Source: Bacteroidales bacterium (GTDB lineage: Bacteria; Bacteroidota; Bacteroidia; Bacteroidales; VadinHA17). From it: a DNA stretch of 64,000 nucleotides. The stretch's first letter is position 1. Every line of letters begins with the position of its first letter. Below, one piece after another: positions 50,586 through 61,940 of this stretch. Location: positions 62,001 to 126,000 of the forward strand of contig PLLO01000003.1 in assembly GCA_003142255.1 (NCBI GenBank). Direction: 5' to 3'. The translations under genes and the position numbers were made by a program. Below the pieces are notes generated by a model. That model was given only the letters and a program-made list of their open reading frames with translations, ran no database searches and had not been told where the DNA came from.

Positions 50586-50969
50586 TCAATTATGACTGCA
50601 GGAATGGCCTTGCTCATGATGAGCCTCATGCTGATGACAGCTACTGCCGCTATCTTCAATTGAGCCTGACAGAAAAAGTTTTACAACTTCTACGGCATCT
50701 CCCGAGCAGCCGCGTATAACTTCTATTCCGCTATTATTAAGGACGTTTATGGCACCTCCACCGATTCCGCCTGCAAGCATTATTGTAACGCCATCTGAAG
50801 CAAGTGCAGATGCTATATCTGACTTACAACCACATCCCTGCGGTGATTCGACACTCTTTATTTCGGCTATTTCATTTTTGTCGGATATTGTAAATACACC
50901 ATACGATTCACAATGGCCAAAATGGTTGTCTATCTGATTCTCTTTTGTTACTGGAACTGCAATTTTCAT
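50586..50969 (-). CDS. NifB/NifX-type dinitrogenase iron-molybdenum cofactor family protein
   Basis: MKIAVPVTKENQIDNHFGHCESYGVFTI...GCGCKSDIASALASDGVTIMLAGGIGGGAINVL; His/Cys tail SSCHQHEAHHEQGHSCSHN. Confidence 0.9.
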   Translation of the reverse strand: MKIAVPVTKENQIDNHFGHCESYGVFTISDKNEIAEIKSVESPQGCGCKSDIASALASDGVTIMLAGGIGGGAINVLNNSGIEVIRGCSGDAVEVVKLFLSGSIEDSGSSCHQHEAHHEQGHSCSHN

Positions 50970-50973
50970 TTTC

Positions 50974-51363
50974 TTATTTTTGAGTAGTTATTACTTTAAA
51001 TTCGGGTTGGTTTGATATTGTTTTCTTTACAAGGCATAATTCTGCAGCATTTACCATTGCTTCGCGATATTTTCCCGGGAAACCGACTGGTAACTGTATG
51101 TCAAGACTAATTGTTTTCGGGACTTTCTTCACTTCATCAAATTCCATGGTCTGAATAATTCTTATATCATCAGTTGCGATTTGTCGTCTGTCGCAGAATG
51201 ATTTAATATAAATACCGGCACATGTCCCGATGGATGCCAGAAACAATTCAAAAGGAGCAGGAGCTGTATTTCCGCCTCCGTTATCAAGTGGCTGATCGGT
51301 CCTGATTATGTGTCCGTTAAGATGTGCGGTAATAACTTTACCGCCGTCAAAAGTTATTTCCAT
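50974..51363 (-). CDS. OsmC family protein
   Basis: GGGNTAPAPFELFLASIGTCAGIYIKSFCDRRQI. Confidence 0.9.
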   Translation of the reverse strand: MEITFDGGKVITAHLNGHIIRTDQPLDNGGGNTAPAPFELFLASIGTCAGIYIKSFCDRRQIATDDIRIIQTMEFDEVKKVPKTISLDIQLPVGFPGKYREAMVNAAELCLVKKTISNQPEFKVITTQK

Positions 51364-51365
51364 TT

Positions 51366-51773
51366 TTAATTATTTAATTTTATCAATTCATTTTCTCCAT
51401 AAACAGTGCAATCCTTGCATTTCAAGTGGTTTTCCATACCCTCTATCAGCTTATAACATTTTTTGCACCGATACCACTCTTTTTCCAGGAGATAATTGCC
51501 GCCTTCTATTTCAATGGCTTTACCCTCTACAAAAGATTTTGCTATTTGTTTTAATGCTTTGTTATAAATCCGGGTAAAAGTAGGACGCGAAACATCCATT
51601 TGTTCAGCTGCCTGTTCCTGTGAAAATCTGTCGTAATTTACTAATCTGATACTTTCGTATTCTTCGAATTTCAATATGACAGGTTCAACTTTGCACATTG
51701 GCATCCCATAGGGTTTGAATCCCTTCATTTTGGGTGGGTTTGAAATCTTTCTGATTTTATGCGGACGCGCCAT
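51366..51773 (-). CDS. DUF134 family HTH protein
   Basis: MARPHKIRKISNPPKMKGFKPYG...ESIRLVNYDRFSQEQAAEQMDVSRPTFTRIYNKA; C-terminal Cys4 CKKC...CKDC. Confidence 0.92.
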   Translation of the reverse strand: MARPHKIRKISNPPKMKGFKPYGMPMCKVEPVILKFEEYESIRLVNYDRFSQEQAAEQMDVSRPTFTRIYNKALKQIAKSFVEGKAIEIEGGNYLLEKEWYRCKKCYKLIEGMENHLKCKDCTVYGENELIKLNN

Positions 51774-52002
51774 TCCTTTTTGATTTGAAAATTGATTTGA
51801 TATCGGGGTAGATAAGATACCCAAAGAATATTGCCGACAAAACTAGGATTATTTTACCGGCAAGACAAAAAGTGCCGCAATAAAATTTTTCTCCAAGACC
51901 AAATAAACATGTAGTGCACCCCAATAGAGCCATTAAGATGTAATCAACAAACAGGATTAATGGCAAAACAAAAAATAATTTAATGAAAAATGAAGCCTTC
52001 AT
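51757..52002 (-). CDS. Small Cys-rich membrane protein
   Basis: Two hydrophobic segments and GCTTCLFGLGEKFYCGTFC. Confidence 0.6.
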   Translation of the reverse strand: MKASFFIKLFFVLPLILFVDYILMALLGCTTCLFGLGEKFYCGTFCLAGKIILVLSAIFFGYLIYPDIKSIFKSKRNGASA

Positions 52003-52109: not shown

Positions 52110-52748
52110 TTACTGAATTGAACCACGATTTGCAATCAGCAGGAAAGCATCGAAATGTTTAGTTTCAGTATCAGAAATTATTTTGTCAATAATATAACAC
52201 TTCCGGTAGCTTATATTCTTAAAGCCAAGTTTTATGAGTAGCCTCGACAATTCTGCCGGATCTAAGCCTTTATGACCAGAGAATCCTTTCCCATGAAATG
52301 AACCATCTTCAGGATAAAGATCTGCAATTGCCAGGTGACCATTCGGATTTAGCAGATCATAAAACATCTTTACAATATTCTCAATATCTGCAACATGATG
52401 AAGGACCATTTGGGTGAATATAAGATCAAACTTTCCTCCTTTGTATTCCGCATGCTCCAAGTCAAAGTTCAAAGTTTTTAGATTTCTTACTTTCGTGGTT
52501 TTTATCTTTTCGTCAATTATCCTCACCATTTCGGACGAACTATCCATCAAAGTGATCTCTTTCAGAGAATCTTTAAGTAGAAAACTGGCTATCCCTGTAC
52601 CGGCACCGTATTCAAGAGCAGTCATCTGCTTTCCTAAAGGTATGAGTTTTTTTATCTGATTTGTAATAACCTCAGAACGATCCCAATGCATCGGGTTTTT
52701 ATCCCATTCGGCTGCTTTTATATCAAATTCATTCATCATGCTTTTCAT
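52110..52748 (-). CDS. Class I SAM-dependent methyltransferase
   Basis: ALEYGAGTGIASFLL motif I, FDLIFTQMVLHHVADIENIVKMFYDLLNPNGHLAIADL. Confidence 0.92.
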   Translation of the reverse strand: MKSMMNEFDIKAAEWDKNPMHWDRSEVITNQIKKLIPLGKQMTALEYGAGTGIASFLLKDSLKEITLMDSSSEMVRIIDEKIKTTKVRNLKTLNFDLEHAEYKGGKFDLIFTQMVLHHVADIENIVKMFYDLLNPNGHLAIADLYPEDGSFHGKGFSGHKGLDPAELSRLLIKLGFKNISYRKCYIIDKIISDTETKHFDAFLLIANRGSIQ

Positions 52749-52851
52749 GAAATATATGGAGTTTATTACGTGTATTATCAAAATATCCCAAGGTCATTTG
52801 CATCGCTATCAGCTTATAGTAAAATAGTATAACAGAATAAAAGCATTTTTG

Positions 52852-53919
52852 TTAGCAGCATCTAAGCACTTGTGGATTTTCTGGCATTCCTATATCTTCT
52901 CCATTCCGACCCTTGTATTTTTGATCAGGATCGTAATCTATTCCCAGTTTGTCCAGTAAAGGTTCGACACTGACTTGATGTATTTGCAAACCTATATCCC
53001 ATGGATTGTAGCCTAACAGTAGTCCGGCTAATTCTTCATAGGTTAATACGGGTATGCCATATCCGTCTTCACCATAAGTTTTGCCTTCCATTTCGGCAAT
53101 CACATATTGCCAGCGGTCGAGGAAAAATGTACAACCAGGACAATTGGCTATGATAAGATCGGGTTTAAAAGGCAGCATCGAATCAAATTTCTTTTTTGAA
53201 TTAGTAATTGAGTAAGATCTGTTCGATTTCAGCAGGTATTGTCTGAATCCAAAACCACAGCAATGCCTGCGTTCAGGATAATCTATCTGACTACCTCCCC
53301 ATTCGTCAATTAATCCTGCCAGCACATATGGATATTCAGCGCCTCCGATACCTTCCTGCGGAAATATCTTTGCATAGTGGCAGCCAATATGGTCCACAAC
53401 TTTAAGTGGCTCTTTTGTATTCTGATTTATGAGCCTGAATTTTGCCTTTGCTGCAATTTCTTTACGGAATTTGTAAATAATGTCGCTTGCATGAACAAGA
53501 TTTTTGGGTATCTCAAATGCTTTACCAGTGGCATTTTTCAATGCATCGCGCGTTTTTTGTTCCGTTTCCGGGAAATGCTTCCATGTATCCATCACCTCAA
53601 TATAAATACCAAAAGAGGTTACACACGATGCAACAAAGTTTTCATATCCAGCTTCGTTCATCAAAGCAAATTGACGTGCAACCACGGTCATTATAGTTTC
53701 AAAAGGTATTAAACCCGAATGGTAGGCAATACCCGTGCATGTAGTTTGCCGGGAATCGTCGAAAATATCCTTTCCAAGTTCATTTCTGAGGATATTAATA
53801 TAAAGGTTTTCGGCAGCAGGGAAGAAATTCTGTCTTATGCAACTGCGTGCAAAATAGTAATGATCTTCAGCTATCTCTTTCTGGTATGCTAACCAGATTT
53901 CATTTTTCCTTGTATTCAT
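52852..53919 (-). CDS. HdrB-like heterodisulfide reductase subunit B
   Basis: CCG-type motif VVDHIGCHYAK...RHCCGFGFR...IANCPGCTFFLDRW; N-terminal CCG motif degenerate. Confidence 0.85.
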   Translation of the reverse strand: MNTRKNEIWLAYQKEIAEDHYYFARSCIRQNFFPAAENLYINILRNELGKDIFDDSRQTTCTGIAYHSGLIPFETIMTVVARQFALMNEAGYENFVASCVTSFGIYIEVMDTWKHFPETEQKTRDALKNATGKAFEIPKNLVHASDIIYKFRKEIAAKAKFRLINQNTKEPLKVVDHIGCHYAKIFPQEGIGGAEYPYVLAGLIDEWGGSQIDYPERRHCCGFGFRQYLLKSNRSYSITNSKKKFDSMLPFKPDLIIANCPGCTFFLDRWQYVIAEMEGKTYGEDGYGIPVLTYEELAGLLLGYNPWDIGLQIHQVSVEPLLDKLGIDYDPDQKYKGRNGEDIGMPENPQVLRCC

Positions 53920-53954
53920 TAAGAGGTCGATTAATATAACTGTATTTGAATTAA

Positions 53955-54641
53955 TTAATCATTATACAGATATTTAAAGTAGTCGTCTTTCCCCTCACTA
54001 AAATTAATTTTGAGCTCTTTAGCTTTGGCAGAAGAGTATTTTTCAATCTTCTCAAATCTTTGTGTAGCACCTGTTTCATCAAATATCTTTTTAAGGTCAT
54101 TAAGCGATTCCTGTGATGTTTTACGAAGTGTGCCGGTTTGTTCTTTATTATAGCTAGTTCCAAGACGTTCCAGCATAGACTCTCTGTTTTTCTTCAACCA
54201 ATCCCATACAGGCCCTTGTTCGGGATACATTTCAGTATCAACTTCATCAATATATACACAATAGCCATATTTCAGAATATGGTCTCCCACAATCCTCTTT
54301 ACAGCCAGTTGTTTCATGCCCTGTTGACTTTCAATGAAAAGGCCCGTTTCAATGGATAATGCCCGTAAGGCCTGAATAATGTAACAAGGTGTATTTCCGC
54401 GAGGACATCTTGTTTTACAGGAAAGACATTCACCACACAACCATATCGTATCGCTTTTCAGTAACTTTTCTAACTCAGCTTCATCTTTTTGTTGTACAAT
54501 GTCAACCACTATACGCGGATCGTAATCGCTCACCTCAGCAGCAGGACAGACTGCAGTGCAAACACCGCAATTGAAACAGGATTTCAATCCCTCACTATAA
54601 CGGACATCCTTTTCAAGTTCTTTGTACAAATCTATCGCCAT
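53955..54641 (-). CDS. HdrC-like 4Fe-4S protein
   Basis: SCFNCGVCTAVCPAAEVSDYDPR and WLCGECLSCKTRCPRGNTPCYII. Confidence 0.88.
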   Translation of the reverse strand: MAIDLYKELEKDVRYSEGLKSCFNCGVCTAVCPAAEVSDYDPRIVVDIVQQKDEAELEKLLKSDTIWLCGECLSCKTRCPRGNTPCYIIQALRALSIETGLFIESQQGMKQLAVKRIVGDHILKYGYCVYIDEVDTEMYPEQGPVWDWLKKNRESMLERLGTSYNKEQTGTLRKTSQESLNDLKKIFDETGATQRFEKIEKYSSAKAKELKINFSEGKDDYFKYLYND

Positions 54642-54693
54642 TTATTATGCTTAAAAATTTGAAGACATCTGTTTTTTATGATTTCAGTTGTTA

Positions 54694-55326
54694 TTATTCG
54701 GCTAAAATATTATAGACATCCCCTGGTGTCACTCCCAGCTTATCTGCGATAGTACGTAGAGAAGTTTCTCCATCAGCTTCAATGCCCTTTTTCTTAAGGG
54801 TATTGATTAAAGTCTCCAGATCCTTTCCTGTTCTTTGAGCAGCAGTTTTTAATGTTAATCTCCCAATGCCCTGCTGTCCCTGACTGCCCCGCTCTATAGG
54901 AGGAGCAGCATAGTTTCCTTCCCAGCTTCGTTTAGCTTTTTCTCCAAAGCTCATTACAGGGCCAAAAGGAGTCCAGGAACGAAGAGTTCCGATGAAAATT
55001 AAAGCAGTTATAATCAAGGCTGCAGCCAGTTCCCATTTTTTATTCAGCCCTGCTTTGAGCTTGCTCTTAAAATAAGTAAGAAATGTTTTCCAGTTAATAA
55101 AGAATAGATGTATGATAACAAGAATGAAAAAAAGGTACGAGAATATAGTATGAAGCGCCTGCCATTCAGCTTTAGTGAAAAGCAAAAGCTTCCAGGTTCC
55201 CCAATTTGCTATTCTTCCGGGGGGTGCAATGTATAGTACAAACCCGGACCATGACATGATCAGGGTGGAAATCACGAGCGAAAAACTGGTGAAGCTTCTC
55301 AGATTGAATTTTTGCTTTTCTTTCAT
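54694..55326 (-). CDS. DUF4405-type b-type cytochrome membrane protein
   Basis: TM segments, HTIFSYLFFILVIIHLFFINWK; short helical C-terminal domain DLETLINTLKKKGIEAD...IADKLGVTPGDVYNIL. Confidence 0.75.
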   Translation of the reverse strand: MKEKQKFNLRSFTSFSLVISTLIMSWSGFVLYIAPPGRIANWGTWKLLLFTKAEWQALHTIFSYLFFILVIIHLFFINWKTFLTYFKSKLKAGLNKKWELAAALIITALIFIGTLRSWTPFGPVMSFGEKAKRSWEGNYAAPPIERGSQGQQGIGRLTLKTAAQRTGKDLETLINTLKKKGIEADGETSLRTIADKLGVTPGDVYNILAE

Positions 55327-55370
55327 TTTTTTATTGAAAATGTGAATTTAAAGGGTACATCATATAAACA

Positions 55371-56414
55371 TTAGCCTTTTATTTTAGCAAAATACATTGC
55401 AAAAGAGCGATATAAAAAATGAGTCCATTTACCAAATGGAACTATTATTAATGCCCACTGGACGAGAATAGTTAAATGAAGCAGATATATCCAGATATTG
55501 TTTTCAAGTATCCCTGTATCAATAAAAACACGAACCACAAAAGCTGAAAGCCCCATCAAAAACAACCAGATGACAAATAACCAGTCGGAAGGCTGTGAGA
55601 ACTTACTCAGCTCTTTTTTCTTCCTTACACGTTCTGAAACGAAAATGACAGTAACTGCAAAAACTGTGATACTCAACAGATATCCAAGTGCAGTAACAAA
55701 TAAGCTGCCGCTGGAGAACCAGTCAAGGACCACTGTTGTAAAGAGCAATCCCAGATATCCTATTACCAGAATAAAATGTTCAAACCATCTTAATTGATTG
55801 TCATCACAACCGAGCGCTCTTTTCTGGGTGAACATGTGGACAATTAATTCCCACAACCCGCGCACATATTTTTTAAACGGTACCTTTATTTTGGGTTTCA
55901 GAATTACGAACCACCACATCCTGATAAGGTTTGGAACAAAGATGACCCCCAAAACCGTCAATATGGCGAACATTTCAAAGTAATGGCCATAATGCATAAT
56001 TGATGCAAGGTCAAATTTCTTGTAAACGCTGAATATTATAACACCTAATGCAGTAAGGACAAATGCTAAAATGCTTAATGGCAAAGATTTATAGAGCAAA
56101 CCTGATAATCCAGTCCAGTCATATACAGAGGTGAGCCACCGCCTCAACGACATCATGAGTTCTCCAGGGTATGCTGTTCGCGGGCAATGCATTGTGCATT
56201 CGCCGCAATAATAACAAAGCCATGGCTTCAGGGAAGACTTAATATCATCTTCTAATCCCAGGACGCTGAATCGCACCATTTCCCTTGGGAATGAATCATC
56301 TTCAGTGGATAAAGAGCAAACGGCAGTGCAATTACCACAGTTATAGCATGCATTGAAATCAAATGCACCATATTTTTTCAGTTCCTCTCCGAACCGGAGA
56401 TTAATAATGGCCAT
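55371..56414 (-). CDS. QmoC/HdrE-like protein (HdrC-type Fe-S domain fused to NarI-like membrane domain)
   Basis: ACYNCGNCTAVCSLS, WLCYYCGECTMHCPRTAYPGELMM, then about six TM segments. Confidence 0.85.
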   Translation of the reverse strand: MAIINLRFGEELKKYGAFDFNACYNCGNCTAVCSLSTEDDSFPREMVRFSVLGLEDDIKSSLKPWLCYYCGECTMHCPRTAYPGELMMSLRRWLTSVYDWTGLSGLLYKSLPLSILAFVLTALGVIIFSVYKKFDLASIMHYGHYFEMFAILTVLGVIFVPNLIRMWWFVILKPKIKVPFKKYVRGLWELIVHMFTQKRALGCDDNQLRWFEHFILVIGYLGLLFTTVVLDWFSSGSLFVTALGYLLSITVFAVTVIFVSERVRKKKELSKFSQPSDWLFVIWLFLMGLSAFVVRVFIDTGILENNIWIYLLHLTILVQWALIIVPFGKWTHFLYRSFAMYFAKIKG

Positions 56415-56692
56415 TATTTTTTGAGTTTGTAAGAAAAATATTCGTCCATTTCATCAATTGCTCCGGTTTGTACATAACCAAATTTTACTAGGGACATCAG
56501 GTAAAATACCACTTCATTTTTTGGCATGTTAAGTTTTTGCGTCAGCTGCTCAATAGTCAGATCGCTTTCCTTTAGCAAATCAAGAATAGTTTTCTTTATC
56601 TGATTAAAGCGCTTCAGATTATCCTTTGCTTCCTGAGAAACTTCCCGTTTTTCTCTCAAGTATTTAAAAGTCTTTCCTTTCTCAACTTCCAT
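56414..56692 (-). CDS. Small winged-helix protein within Hdr operon
   Basis: KKTILDLLKESDLTIEQLTQKLNMPKNEVVFYLMSLVKFGYVQTG; start set at MEVEKGK. Confidence 0.75.
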   Translation of the reverse strand: MEVEKGKTFKYLREKREVSQEAKDNLKRFNQIKKTILDLLKESDLTIEQLTQKLNMPKNEVVFYLMSLVKFGYVQTGAIDEMDEYFSYKLKK

Positions 56693-56747
56693 AATCTCTT
56701 TTTTAATACTAAACCTTGCTATTCTGGTTTTTACTGCCGGACCAATT

Positions 56748-58673
56748 TTATGCAAGTGCGTCAATCATGCTTTCTATTTCACTGTTTGAATAAGCGATCA
56801 GGTTGATGGCGTCGGTAGGGCATACAGGCAAGCACATACCGCAACCTTTGCATACTGAGCTATTAATGACAGCAAAAACTTTTGTTTTATCTTCTTCCAT
56901 TTTTACAGCATCGAAGGGACAAGCCTGTGAACAGGCATTACACCAGGTACATAGGTTCTTGTCTATCCTTGCAATAATTGGCTCAAGTTCCAGTTCTCCC
57001 TTGCTGACATAGGAATAAGATTTTGTGGCAGCAGAAAGAGCTGAATTTACCGCTTCCATAATATTTTTAGGACCCTGGCATGCACCTGAAATAGTTATAC
57101 CGTCAATGACCGTCTCGACAGGGCGAAGCTTCATGTGTATTTCATTAAAGAACCTGTCCCTGCCTTTAGGCAGTTTAAAGAGAGATCCGACCGAATTATC
57201 TTTTCTGGGAACCATTCCAGTTATCAGCACTACCAGGTCGGCTTCAACTTCCATCTCTCGCTTCCCAGTAAGAATATCATTGATCCTGACGACGGTTTTA
57301 TCGTTCATGCCGGTTACAACCGGCGGGTCATTTTCATATGATTGCAGATAAATATCACCCATTCTGGAAGATTCATCGTACAGGACTTCCTGTTTGCCAT
57401 ATGTTCTTATACCCCTGGTGAAATGGAAATTATATATGTTACGGAATTTCTTCTTAGCGTTAATTGCAGCATGGATAGCAGATGTACAGCAATAGCGTGA
57501 GCAGTATTTATTTTCACCTTCAACCTGCCGGCTTCCTACACAATAGATGTAAGCGATATTCTTTATTTCCCTTCCTTTAAACGTCAGCTTCTCATCGCTT
57601 AAATCGATCATACGTTTAAACTGCGGAAGGGTCACCACATTGTCAAACGAATTATAGCCAAACTCCCCGTCTGCGGGTGTATAAGGGTCGAACCCGGTTG
57701 CCATAAGAACAGATCCCACATTTATGTCTGTTATTTCTTCTTTTTGAGAAAAATCGACATTCTCACAAATCTTTTCACATGCTCCGCAACGTGTACAATT
57801 CTTAATATCTATTACCGGTGACTGAGGATATTCACCCGGGAAATTATGATATATTGCTTTCCGGCTTGTAATGTGGAAATTGAAATCATCGGGGACTTCA
57901 ACTGGGCAGGCATCAATTGCATTCTGTAATTCGCCCAGGTTGCATTTTTCTTTTATATACCTTGGAGTAGTCTTAATTTTCAGCTTAAAATCTCCAATAT
58001 TTCCCGAACAACTTATTACCTCAGTACTGGTGTATATAGTTATATTTCTCCGTTTTACAAGGTCGTTATACAGCCTGGTAACTAATTCTTTTCCTGTCTC
58101 GTTTGTGGTGAACAAGGCATCCCACTGCGACACTCTGCCACCGACGAAATATTCCCTCTCAATTATATAGACCTGGCATCCCAGGTTCGACAGTTCTATA
58201 GCAGCCTTCATCCCTGCTACACCGCCGCCTATGACGGCAACTGATTTTATTGATTTGATCTTAATGGGTACAAGTGATTCTGCGTATCGGACTTTGGCAA
58301 TAGCAGCCTTAACAATATGAATCGCTTTTTCCGTAGCTCTTGCTTTATCATCGGAATGTGCCCAGGATGCCTGCTCGCGGATATTGGCATGTATATAGTT
58401 GTATTTATTCAGTTCTCCGCGTTCTGTCACTGCTCTGAAAGTCAATAAATGCAACTTGGGAGAACATGATGCTACTACAACGCCATCAAGATGATTGTTT
58501 TTAATATCTTCCACCATCTCCTTCTGATTGGAATCGCCGCAGGCAAACATAGTTGTCTTTGCTATGAAAACGCCCTCTTCATTTTCAACTGACAGACGTA
58601 CCTTCTCAACATCAACATAATCGGAGATATTCCCGCCGCAATGGCAAATATATACGCCTAGTTTCTTATTCAT
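56748..58673 (-). CDS. HdrA/QmoB-like FAD iron-sulfur protein
   Basis: GVYICHCGGNI, VIGGGVAGMKAAIELSNLG, CTRCGACEKICE, CTWCNACSQACPF, CKGCGMCLPVCP. Confidence 0.93.
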   Translation of the reverse strand: MNKKLGVYICHCGGNISDYVDVEKVRLSVENEEGVFIAKTTMFACGDSNQKEMVEDIKNNHLDGVVVASCSPKLHLLTFRAVTERGELNKYNYIHANIREQASWAHSDDKARATEKAIHIVKAAIAKVRYAESLVPIKIKSIKSVAVIGGGVAGMKAAIELSNLGCQVYIIEREYFVGGRVSQWDALFTTNETGKELVTRLYNDLVKRRNITIYTSTEVISCSGNIGDFKLKIKTTPRYIKEKCNLGELQNAIDACPVEVPDDFNFHITSRKAIYHNFPGEYPQSPVIDIKNCTRCGACEKICENVDFSQKEEITDINVGSVLMATGFDPYTPADGEFGYNSFDNVVTLPQFKRMIDLSDEKLTFKGREIKNIAYIYCVGSRQVEGENKYCSRYCCTSAIHAAINAKKKFRNIYNFHFTRGIRTYGKQEVLYDESSRMGDIYLQSYENDPPVVTGMNDKTVVRINDILTGKREMEVEADLVVLITGMVPRKDNSVGSLFKLPKGRDRFFNEIHMKLRPVETVIDGITISGACQGPKNIMEAVNSALSAATKSYSYVSKGELELEPIIARIDKNLCTWCNACSQACPFDAVKMEEDKTKVFAVINSSVCKGCGMCLPVCPTDAINLIAYSNSEIESMIDALA

Positions 58674-59971
58674 TTCTTTTGAATTAAATAACTCATTGCT
58701 TCAGAAGAGGCGGATCCTGCTGACAGGATTGAATCAGGAATATCCATTGGTCCGGAAGCAGTTCCTGCAACAAATACTCCGTCAATGCTTGTCCTGGCTG
58801 GAGTGGCAAGCGGATCTGGTTGGTTGATAAAATTAAAAGAGTCAAGTTTAAGCTGTTCGTCAGGAAAGAGAGCGGCTGTATCCTGATTGGCAATGACACC
58901 AACAGAGAGGACAACTATATCGTGTTCAGCTTCTTTCACTTTGTTTTCATTGATATCTTCGTACCTAAGCATGAGGTTCCCGTTTTCCAGTTCAGAGATT
59001 TTCCCGATTTTTCCTTTTACAAAATTTACCCCCATCCCCTTGGCTTGCTCGTAAAACTCCTCAAATCCCTTTCCGAATGATCTTATGTTTAAATAATAAA
59101 TGGTTACATCAGCCATGGGCAGTGCTCCCATAAGCAGTTGTGCCTGTTTAATTGAATACATGCAGCAGATCTGTGAACAAATGGGATTCCCTATTGTAGC
59201 ATCACGTGATCCTGTACAAAGAACATAGGCAACTTTGCAGGGAACTTTTCCATCACCCGGCCGGAGAATAGTATTAAATGGCCGTGTAGGGGCCAGTTGC
59301 CTTTCCATCTGCATGGAAGTGATTATGTTTTTATAAAGGCCAAATCCATAGCGCGGCATCATAAGCGGATCGAACAATTTAAATCCTGTTGCGATAATAA
59401 TGGATTTGATTTTTATTCTGTATTCTTCCTTTTCCTGAGTAAAATCAATGCATTTGGGCGGACAAGCTTTTTCGCAGGCGCCGCAAAGCGTACAGTTTTC
59501 AATATCGATGGCAGCCACCTTCGGGCTGGCAATCGTGAATGGTATGAATGCAGCTTTTCTGCCTACCAGATTGAACTGGTATTCATCTTTTACAATGACA
59601 GGGCATGCTTGTTCGCAAAGCTGGCAACCGGTGCACTCTTCCTCAATGACATATCTTGGGTTTTTCAGTACTTCAACCTCAAAACTGTTATAATCCTTCT
59701 TAATGATTTTTTGCACTTCACTTCCTGTGAATATTGTAATGGCAGGATGCCGAGATATTTCAGATACCTTTGGTGTGGTGATACAGGCAGAGCAATCGAG
59801 AGTGGGAAAAACTTTGCTGAGCAGAATCATCTTGCCGCCAATTGAAAGGTCTTTTTCTATAATCAATACCTTAAATCCATTATTTGCCAGGTTTAATGCA
59901 GCTTCCCCGCCGGCTATACCGCCGCCGATAACAAGTACATCATAAGAGGCTTCTTCTATTTGTCCCTGCAT
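58670..59971 (-). CDS. HdrA/QmoA-like FAD iron-sulfur protein
   Basis: VLVIGGGIAGGEAALNLANNG, CTGCQLCEQACP, CTLCGACEKACPPKCI, VFVAGTASGPMDIPDSI. Confidence 0.92.
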   Translation of the reverse strand: MQGQIEEASYDVLVIGGGIAGGEAALNLANNGFKVLIIEKDLSIGGKMILLSKVFPTLDCSACITTPKVSEISRHPAITIFTGSEVQKIIKKDYNSFEVEVLKNPRYVIEEECTGCQLCEQACPVIVKDEYQFNLVGRKAAFIPFTIASPKVAAIDIENCTLCGACEKACPPKCIDFTQEKEEYRIKIKSIIIATGFKLFDPLMMPRYGFGLYKNIITSMQMERQLAPTRPFNTILRPGDGKVPCKVAYVLCTGSRDATIGNPICSQICCMYSIKQAQLLMGALPMADVTIYYLNIRSFGKGFEEFYEQAKGMGVNFVKGKIGKISELENGNLMLRYEDINENKVKEAEHDIVVLSVGVIANQDTAALFPDEQLKLDSFNFINQPDPLATPARTSIDGVFVAGTASGPMDIPDSILSAGSASSEAMSYLIQKK

Positions 59972-59972
59972 A

Positions 59973-60380
59973 TTAAATGCCTTGCATTTTTAGTAAATTC
60001 TCATTAAAACTTTTCATCTGCCTGACAAAAGCTTCACTGCATACAGAGCAAATAGCAGCCATCCGCAAACGGGCCGGTTCTATGTTCTTCTGTTTCATCA
60101 GTTCATGTGTAGAGCTTACTATTTTCCCTGTTTTTTCCGTGCACGATTCACCATAGGGACAATCGCTGCCATCGGCAGCTATAAAAACTCCATCAAACCC
60201 TTTCTCAAAGGCATGAAGTATCCATTTTGGTTTAACTCCGCTGGAGCATGGAATGGAAATTGCATAAACTGTTGGCGGATAGTGGAGTTTAAGTAATCCC
60301 GCCATATCAATGGCGGGATCAGATATTTTTTCAGTGGAAAATACCAGTATTCTGGCATTTTTCTTTCCTGTATCAGCCAT
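59973..60380 (-). CDS. MvhD/FlpD-like hydrogenase iron-sulfur subunit
   Basis: VYAISIPCSSGVKPKWILHAFEKGFDGVFIAADGSDCPYGE. Confidence 0.85.
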   Translation of the reverse strand: MADTGKKNARILVFSTEKISDPAIDMAGLLKLHYPPTVYAISIPCSSGVKPKWILHAFEKGFDGVFIAADGSDCPYGESCTEKTGKIVSSTHELMKQKNIEPARLRMAAICSVCSEAFVRQMKSFNENLLKMQGI

Positions 60381-60389
60381 CTTCCTGGA

Positions 60390-60641
60390 TTAGTGTTTTT
60401 TCATAAATATCCTGAAATAGCCACTCACTTCTATTGTGCCCAGGTATTCATGACCTTGTTTTGTACACCATTTCGGTATATCGACTTTGGTTCCTTCGTC
60501 GGCTGATAAAACCTCCATGATATCACTTGGCTTAATAGTACCAATTGCTTTCTTGGCTTCCAGTAATGGACCGGGGCAAGCAGTGCCTCTCGCATCGACT
60601 GTTTTTGTGACCTTTAGTTCTTTTAATTCTTCTGATGTCAT
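60390..60641 (-). CDS. tusA: TusA-like sulfurtransferase
   Basis: VDARGTACPGPLLEAKKAI (CPxP), VLSADEGTKVDIPKWCTKQGHEYLG. Confidence 0.93.
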   Translation of the reverse strand: MTSEELKELKVTKTVDARGTACPGPLLEAKKAIGTIKPSDIMEVLSADEGTKVDIPKWCTKQGHEYLGTIEVSGYFRIFMKKH

Positions 60642-60710
60642 AATAAAATGTAATAAGTGTCAATTGAAAGAAATTGATTTGATTAATCAGAGTTATTGAA
60701 ATTTTTCTGA

Positions 60711-61136
60711 TTATATGAATAGATTTACATCTGCCTCCTGTGCTGCTGTGATATAGGCACCGATGCCACAAATATCATCAGCAATACCGATAAAGTCATC
60801 AAGTTTCTCGCCTCCCCAGATCTTTCCTGCCAGTCCGCAAATGTGGATTTTAACATCCGTGATTTCCTTGGCTTCCTTGAAAAACTCAACCCAGGTTTTT
60901 ACTTTAAGGTTTTTAAGCGATTGCAGGAATTCTGCTTTCATATCAGGATTTTCGGCCATCTGAAGCTTATCGGGGTTGTCTCCGACATCTTTTTTGAAGG
61001 CGCGTGCACCCTGCAGTAAGACATAAATGTCAACTTTCATATCCATAGCTGCAGCACCTCCGAGGATAATACCTGCAGCTGTTAATTTGTCTACACTTCC
61101 TGTAAACAGACCCAAACACATTTTTTTGTTTGCCAT
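60711..61136 (-). CDS. DsrE family protein
   Basis: LGLFTGSVDKLTAAGIILGGAAAMDMKVDIYVLLQGARAF...VKIHICGLAGKIWG. Confidence 0.88.
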   Translation of the reverse strand: MANKKMCLGLFTGSVDKLTAAGIILGGAAAMDMKVDIYVLLQGARAFKKDVGDNPDKLQMAENPDMKAEFLQSLKNLKVKTWVEFFKEAKEITDVKIHICGLAGKIWGGEKLDDFIGIADDICGIGAYITAAQEADVNLFI

Positions 61137-61219
61137 AGCATTAATTTTTTAGTGTTAATTATTTCACAAAGGTACCTTATACATCTATCCAGTCTGGAAT
61201 CTTTCATGTGAGGTTAGTT

Positions 61220-61253
61220 ATAATAAAATGTGATATACCTCACATTTTATTAT
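61220..61253. promoter_or_regulatory. Crp-type palindrome in divergent intergenic region
   Basis: ATAATAAAATGTGA-TATACC-TCACATTTTATTAT: perfect 14-bp arms with TGTGA-N6-TCACA core. Confidence 0.8.
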
Positions 61254-61262
61254 CTTTGAAAT

Positions 61263-61940
61263 ATGAAAAGTGAATGTAAAATATGTGCTATTAAGTCGAA
61301 AGCTGCTTCAAAGCTAAGTGATGAAGAAATAGAAGAACTTTCTTTTAACTGTGCCCTTGTCAAATTTCATAAGATGGATTCTTTGATTAAGCAGGGAACG
61401 TTCTCCACCAATGTTGCCTATTTACGCAGTGGATTAGCCAAAATTCATATTGAAGGGCCATATCACGAACAAATTGTCCGTATTGTAAAGGCTCCGACTT
61501 ACCTCGGATTGCCGACAACATTTGGCGATAAAATAAATCAATATTCAGTCACTGTAATAGAAGAAGCCGAAGTCTGTTTTATTGATATAAATGCCTTTCG
61601 GGATCTTTTGAATTCTAATCCCGGTTTTTCCTATGAAATCATGCTGGAATTATGCCGCAATGAGCTGGAAGTATTTCACAGATGTGCCAATAGAACTCAA
61701 AAACAGATCAGAGGGAAAATTGCAGATGTTATATTGGAGTTTTCTAATAAAATTTATAACTCCAACAGTTTTGTATTGCCACTCACTCAGGAAGATATTG
61801 GAAATCTTGTCGACTCTAGCAGGGAGAGTATCAGCAGAGTAATGACTGAATTTGAAAAGGACGGGATAATCAGGTTTACAGGGAAGAAGATTGAAATTAT
61901 TAACAAAAAATCACTGCAGCTGATCAGTGCAAACGGGTGA
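61263..61940 (+). CDS. Crp/Fnr family transcriptional regulator
   Basis: N-terminal CKICAIKSK; cNMP-like fold; HTH LTQEDIGNLVDSSRESISRVMTEFEKDGII. Confidence 0.92.
   Translation: MKSECKICAIKSKAASKLSDEEIEELSFNCALVKFHKMDSLIKQGTFSTNVAYLRSGLAKIHIEGPYHEQIVRIVKAPTYLGLPTTFGDKINQYSVTVIEEAEVCFIDINAFRDLLNSNPGFSYEIMLELCRNELEVFHRCANRTQKQIRGKIADVILEFSNKIYNSNSFVLPLTQEDIGNLVDSSRESISRVMTEFEKDGIIRFTGKKIEIINKKSLQLISANG

Follow-up and report, generated by a model that had tools for sequence, protein, structure and literature searches.

Gene content of the locus

We analyzed an Hdr/Qmo-like electron-transfer operon that carries tusA and dsrE genes in a Bacteroidales bacterium (assembly GCA_003142255.1). The window, that is, the whole stretch of 64,000 nucleotides under analysis, covers positions 62001-126000 of contig C2 (PLLO01000003.1) in a host genome of 3.73 Mb that is 98% complete. 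Genomes are numbered G (the host is G000) and loci L. A previous sequence-only reading had placed ten genes on the minus strand in the order dsrE, tusA, mvhD, hdrA, hdrA', winged-helix, qmoC, DUF4405 cytochrome, hdrC, and hdrB. All ten are present in the window as minus-strand open reading frames (ORFs) with matching Pfam or NCBIfam matches, and the order is as proposed. The first seven constitute the core of the module (aa, amino acids):

60711..61136, minus strand: putative DsrE-family sulfur carrier, 141 aa (PF13686; resembles 2qs7 and 3pnx; Cys100 invariant in 35 homologs)
60390..60641, minus strand: putative TusA sulfur carrier, 83 aa, CPGP motif (PF01206, E=2.5e-22; Cys22 invariant in 63 homologs)
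59973..60380, minus strand: stand-alone MvhD, 135 aa (PF02662; below the curated VhuD cut-off)
58670..59971, minus strand: HdrA1, QmoA-like flavoprotein, 433 aa (best curated model HdrA2, below its cut-off; own clade)
56748..58673, minus strand: HdrA2 (HdrA'), QmoB-like flavoprotein, 641 aa, without a fused MvhD domain (NCBIfam, tree, and alignment)
56414..56692, minus strand: small winged-helix protein, 92 aa (homolog starts; AlphaFold2; ArsR/MarR-type matches)
55371..56414, minus strand: QmoC-like membrane subunit (NF038018, 141-142 bits, curated cut-off 300 bits; two 4Fe-4S motifs; six predicted transmembrane helices)

Nine of the ten genes keep the positions first given to them. For the winged-helix gene, homologs begin with MEVEKGKT, so that the first ORF start, at 56764, lies too far upstream and was replaced by 56692; the AlphaFold2 model of this protein (pLDDT 86.9) has the element order of a winged-helix fold. 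The tight spacing and overlaps that had been described agree with the measured gaps, which are 9, 1, -4, and -1 bp at the starts of mvhD, hdrA, hdrA', and qmoC, respectively, and 35-69 bp elsewhere.

Key residues of the encoded proteins are conserved in aligned homologs. In MvhD, Cys 45, 74, 80, 111, and 114 are invariant (95 homologs), as are two ferredoxin-type Cys sets in HdrA1. The QmoC-like subunit has invariant C23-C33 and C67-C77 ferredoxin-type motifs as well as invariant H213, H313, and H332, which are candidate heme b ligands. The PF01206 domain and the conserved Cys-Pro-x-Pro assign TusA to its family; for DsrE, PF13686, the match to 2qs7, and the invariant Cys100 do the same, and a role in sulfur transfer is predicted from these features.

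Conservation and distribution of the module

Named genomes were scanned with a three-sequence MvhD alignment, which gave 279 relatives, and the best 80 of them were used for locus analysis. Among the named-genome loci scored by tblastn, 58 are long enough downstream and 68 long enough upstream. The genes hdrA1, hdrA2, winged-helix, and qmoC are in place in 58/58 of the former, whereas tusA is present together with one or more DsrE-family genes in 68/68 of the latter. Because the core order is kept throughout both sets, the arrangement is far beyond chance. The DsrE slot itself is variable: a 188-aa type (with an invariant Cys147 in aligned homologs) occupies it in 55 loci, the 141-aa type of the window in 18, and a 122-aa type in 9.

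This constancy bears on the possibility that the operon encodes an Hdr that bifurcates electrons from hydrogen, formate, or NADH via MvhD, with TusA and DsrE as mere neighbors. Besides MvhD itself, hydrogenase-linked hdrA-qmoC-hdrA'-mvhDGA clusters in G295, G139, and G169 and the first HdrA of G451 (L201 4442-7192, 916 aa), into which a GltD-like domain for NAD(P)H binding is inserted, are in line with such a function. However, no hydrogenase or dehydrogenase gene lies within the conserved module, and a TusA plus a DsrE in every upstream-complete locus is too constant for chance neighbors, which makes this explanation highly improbable. Clusters of the order hdrA-qmoC-hdrA'-mvhD-mvhG-mvhA, with QmoC-like and apparent NiFe hydrogenase genes, were seen in L017, L018, L020, and L023 (in L023, mvhA is cut off or out of view).

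The last three genes of the window operon do not share the conservation of the core:

54694..55326, minus strand: DUF4405 cytochrome-b-like membrane protein (PF14358)
53955..54641, minus strand: HdrC-like protein (NCBIfam and alignment)
52852..53919, minus strand: HdrB-like protein (NCBIfam and alignment)

Homologs of the window-type HdrB occur in only 10/80 loci (the best 80 of the 279 MvhD relatives), and HdrC-HdrB-DUF4405 is therefore regarded as an optional add-on. Thus, the operon first proposed as a unit holds for its core but not for these three genes. HdrB was also dropped as a part of the system at the level of the host order, for which 246 genomes were sampled: 82/246 have an HdrB, mostly another paralog, and no enrichment in module genomes was found (p=0.16). 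In the HdrB-like protein of the window, the C-terminal CCG cluster ligands are intact, and the N-terminal site is degenerate, without its CC and CxxC parts. The host has a second HdrC-HdrB pair in L188 (C2:146001-156000), the two proteins being 58% and 69% identical to those of the window; after it come a 340-aa FAD protein and then a 634-aa HdrD/TfrB-like protein.

The module MvhD was found in 44/246 genomes of the host order (18%), and its distribution is patchy: it is missing from one genome of the host genus and from one of the host family. Nearly all of the best 80 of the 279 MvhD relatives belong to Bacteroidota. Carriers include the isolate Seramator thermalis and metagenome-assembled genomes (MAGs) labeled Petrimonas, Proteiniphilum, Paludibacter, Prolixibacteraceae, and Dysgonomonadaceae; the carrier isolates and genera among these relatives are anaerobic Bacteroidales. 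Several module-host MAGs have Zodletone-type names, and the Zodletone spring has been reported to be polysulfide-rich (PMC9040765). Petrimonas sulfuriphila has been reported to reduce elemental sulfur (PMC6861310). In one record labeled Ca. Theseobacter exili (Auribacterota; L074), the module is nested among Bacteroidales sequences, suggesting transfer or mis-binning.

Further downstream of the operon, the window contains several genes with recurrent neighborhoods:

52110..52781, minus strand: S-adenosylmethionine (SAM) methyltransferase (Pfam; equal neighbor order in L028 and L033)
50586..51824, minus strand: DUF134, OsmC-like, and NifX-like genes (Pfam; recur near the module in other loci)

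The DUF134, OsmC-like, and NifX-like neighbors, together with cysteine-desulfurase-like genes within the G451 cluster, would suit a role in sulfur trafficking or homeostasis, in which the module limits persulfide or delivers the sulfur needed for Fe-S clusters, thiolated tRNA, or selenium proteins and has no energy role. The TusA and DsrE families serve biosynthesis too. On the other hand, two HdrA flavoproteins and a QmoC-like subunit whose Fe-S motifs and His residues are invariant would be costly for a simple relay, and the patchy occurrence is unlike that of a housekeeping relay. We consider a pure trafficking role improbable.

Regulatory region and extent of the locus

Upstream of dsrE, three further features were identified:

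61263..61940, plus strand: divergent Crp-family regulator (PF13545, PF00027)
61229..61244, minus strand: palindrome TGTGAGGTATATCACA, TGTGA-N6-TCACA, between crp and dsrE; the sole exact copy in the 64-kb window
61167..61174, minus strand: TACCTTTG, candidate Bacteroidota -7 element of the dsrE operon (consensus-based), beginning 62 bp past the box center

The divergent crp gene is present in 53/68 upstream-complete loci. In the divergent regions across loci, the box is exact in 46/63 and has at most one mismatch in 60/63, compared to 8 copies in 1.0 Mb elsewhere. The box at 61229-61244 is identical to the E. coli CRP consensus, though the regulator is from Bacteroidota. A single exact copy was found in the adjoining 20 kb, where the crp gene preceding a psr operon begins. 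These data suggest that a Crp-type regulator reading TGTGA-N6-TCACA would bind here and control the sulfur genes. The system thus reaches past the limits first drawn around the ten genes, with the Crp gene and box upstream and the psr-yeeE operon approximately 5 kb beyond the window end.

Comparison with known Hdr, Qmo, and sulfur-transfer systems

An HdrA phylogeny, which had been suggested as a check, set the module HdrAs in clades of their own, separate from aprAB-linked Qmo. A quick maximum-likelihood tree was built from 62 HdrA-type proteins, with no methanogen, type II Qmo, or sHdr sequences among them. Module HdrA1 forms one clade in it (support 97) and HdrA2 another (100), while the aprAB-linked Chlorobia QmoA/B are placed elsewhere in the tree (99), grouping with stand-alone qmoABC. 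Stand-alone qmoABC of canonical type, with no apr genes in view, was also seen in L021 (G169) and L022 (G295).

The module resembles type I QmoABC in having two HdrA-type flavoproteins and a QmoC-like membrane subunit, but MvhD is a separate gene and TusA, DsrE, and the winged-helix gene are built in. It was not assigned to this type: its QmoC-like protein reaches 141-142 bits where the cut-off is 300, the HdrA clades are separate, and the host is without aprB and sat. An ordinary QmoABC serving APS reductase, which the similarity of these subunits might bring to mind, is also at odds with the score of about 500 bits for the best Chlorobia-type QmoC and with genomes that hold the module plus a separate aprBA-qmoABC. 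We give this explanation very little credence, and for the host it is refuted unless aprAB sits in the 2% that the assembly lacks.

Searches of the host genome revealed no NIR_SIR match and hence no dsrAB sulfite reductase, no APS-reductase_C match (PF12139) and no aprB, no ATP-sulfurylase match (PF01747) and no sat, and a single GCV_H protein without a second, LbpA-like one. The absence of aprAB, sat, dsrAB, and lbpA that had been described for the window therefore holds genome-wide, and the genome-wide aprAB-sat that would have spoken against the sequence-only reading was not found. The Dsr pathway was accordingly rejected as an assignment. In scans of 37 module genomes, 34 have no sulfite reductase, and sat was found in none of the six with APS-reductase_C. 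Complete aprBA-qmoABC, apart from the module, was seen in three of these six in the stretches that were read: L192 (G555), L194 (G464), and L196 (G394), all from host-order genomes with no sat and no sulfite reductase in the searches. A CysH-like gene (named by eye) lies near it in L192 and L194.

Type II QmoAB(C) has been described as closer to HdrA than to type I QmoAB and as likewise occurring without Dsr and Apr, its function being unassigned (PMC10504309). The module is also more HdrA-like than type I and lies in a host lacking Dsr and Apr, but a linkage with TusA/DsrE does not appear in the part of that description available to us (PMC10504309). The sHdr-LbpA system is a syntenic shdrC1B1AHC2B2 or C1B1AHB3 with etfAB (PMC11582611). 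Both systems place Hdr-like proteins beside TusA/DsrE-type carriers, at times with a YeeE-type importer; however, the module has a QmoC and a second HdrA and lacks the shdrC1B1AHC2B2 order and an LbpA-like protein. With this gene order and a single GCV_H-family protein in the host, it was not counted as sHdr-LbpA.

The YTD cluster of sulfur disproportionators combines yedE, tusA, and dsrE in one cluster (PMC8780430). YeeE/YedE, TusA, and DsrE likewise occur together in some module relatives, but the module has a built-in Hdr/Qmo-type membrane complex, YeeE is near but outside the core, and there is no dsrAB. In the host, yeeE is in a separate operon, and the yedE-tusA-dsrE grouping that defines YTD is lacking. 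HdrA, MvhD, and homologs of HdrB and HdrC in the window recall methanogen HdrABC-MvhAGD. Nevertheless, the module has no MvhAG, one HdrB CCG site is degenerate, and the membrane subunit is of the quinone type; HdrA, HdrB, and HdrC all score below the curated cut-offs, and this assignment was rejected as well. Our literature search found no description of this module in Bacteroidota.

Sulfur-related genes in the neighborhood

The psrABC-yeeE-yeeE-rhodanese operon beyond the window end follows a Crp-family gene of its own and encodes a molybdopterin oxidoreductase with 4Fe-4S and NrfD/PsrC subunits, as well as a rhodanese and two Sulf_transp (YeeE) halves. The psr genes stand immediately next to the module in L033 and L041. 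In nine other genomes (G411, G417, G436, G464, G478, G537, G559, G566, and G581), a YeeE gene and the module are no more than about 7 kb apart, compared to ~0.2 genomes expected by a rough Poisson estimate. Among the ten genomes listed with a YeeE frame of 407-410 aa, nine carry the module (P ~8e-7, for a length picked after seeing the data).

A DsrC that keeps both C-terminal Cys residues is encoded next to the module in G451 and G579, as are cysteine-desulfurase-like proteins, and G451 also has a DsrK/HmcF/TmcB-like protein nearby. The genes of G579 look homologous to those of G451 and are of equal size; its 914-aa HdrA1 homolog (L200) was matched by size, its domain content not being scanned. 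DsrC is weakly enriched in module genomes of the host order (20/44 vs 57/202, p=0.02). In G581 (L139), an SQR-like flavoprotein, a DUF1641 protein, DsrC, and a DsrE-family protein stand in a row near the module; G508 (L202) has a similar arrangement by position alone, its SQR-like and DUF1641-like genes not being scanned.

Part of this neighborhood is also compatible with an oxidative role, in which the module would oxidize TusA/DsrE-bound sulfane sulfur (for example to sulfite) and pass electrons to menaquinone, as in sHdr or reverse Dsr, or act as an arm of disproportionation. YeeE-TusA-DsrE recalls the YTD cluster (PMC8780430) and the SoxT1A-fed sHdr (PMC11582611), an SQR-like gene is near the module in G581, and aprB, where present, could take sulfite further. 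By contrast, the host is without aprB, sat, or an LbpA-like second GCV_H, its operon is without an HdrB having two intact CCG sites, and the isolates and genera among the relatives are anaerobic Bacteroidales. An oxidative direction thus appears unlikely.

A proposed sulfane-sulfur redox module

The sequence-only reading had suggested that a membrane-linked Hdr complex, distinct from both canonical Qmo and sHdr, could act on the sulfur of persulfides or thiols. Gene context supports this proposal well: the gene set is fixed, the sulfur-carrying Cys residues are invariant, sulfur import or rhodanese genes are neighbors or share the box, the host is without Dsr, Apr, Sat, and LbpA, and the HdrA clades stand apart from aprAB-linked Qmo. 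From these features, we give roughly even chances to a quinone-linked sulfane-sulfur redox module in which TusA/DsrE-bound sulfur would be reduced to sulfide. Reduction is preferred because the relatives are anaerobes, a Psr-like operon is under the same box, and no later sulfite-oxidation enzyme was found in the host.

In this proposal, the Psr-like enzyme and rhodanese would handle sulfane sulfur (polysulfide, elemental sulfur, or thiosulfate) outside the cytoplasm, and YeeE/YedE would import it. The imported sulfur would then be loaded as persulfide onto TusA and DsrE and be reduced to sulfide by an HdrA1-HdrA2-MvhD-QmoC membrane complex, which would trade electrons with menaquinone and perhaps also with NAD(P)H or ferredoxin. 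In the host, a second membrane pair, the DUF4405 cytochrome and HdrC-HdrB, may act in a DsrMK-like manner on the carrier-bound disulfide.

Several observations weigh against reduction of carrier-bound sulfur as the function. As a donor for reducing persulfide, menaquinol is weak, and a second, low-potential donor would thus be needed. No DsrC was found in the host genome. YeeE presence is not enriched in module genomes (21/44 vs 97/202, p=0.58); only its closeness is, and this was spotted post hoc. Finally, the SQR-like gene of G581 would fit oxidation equally, and so would aprB (APS-reductase_C), which occurs in 6/37 module genomes.

With somewhat less confidence than in the redox module itself, we further propose a DsrAB-independent sulfane-sulfur respiration in Bacteroidales, with persulfidated TusA/DsrE as the terminal acceptor of a menaquinone-linked Hdr complex. 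Our literature search found no paper assigning a cytoplasmic Hdr-type route to sulfur-reducing Bacteroidales relatives. The module probably lets its carriers use sulfur as an electron acceptor independently of the usual enzymes of sulfate reduction. If confirmed, it would serve as a genetic marker of dsrAB-independent sulfur use and would add carrier-bound persulfides to the substrates of the Hdr/Qmo family.

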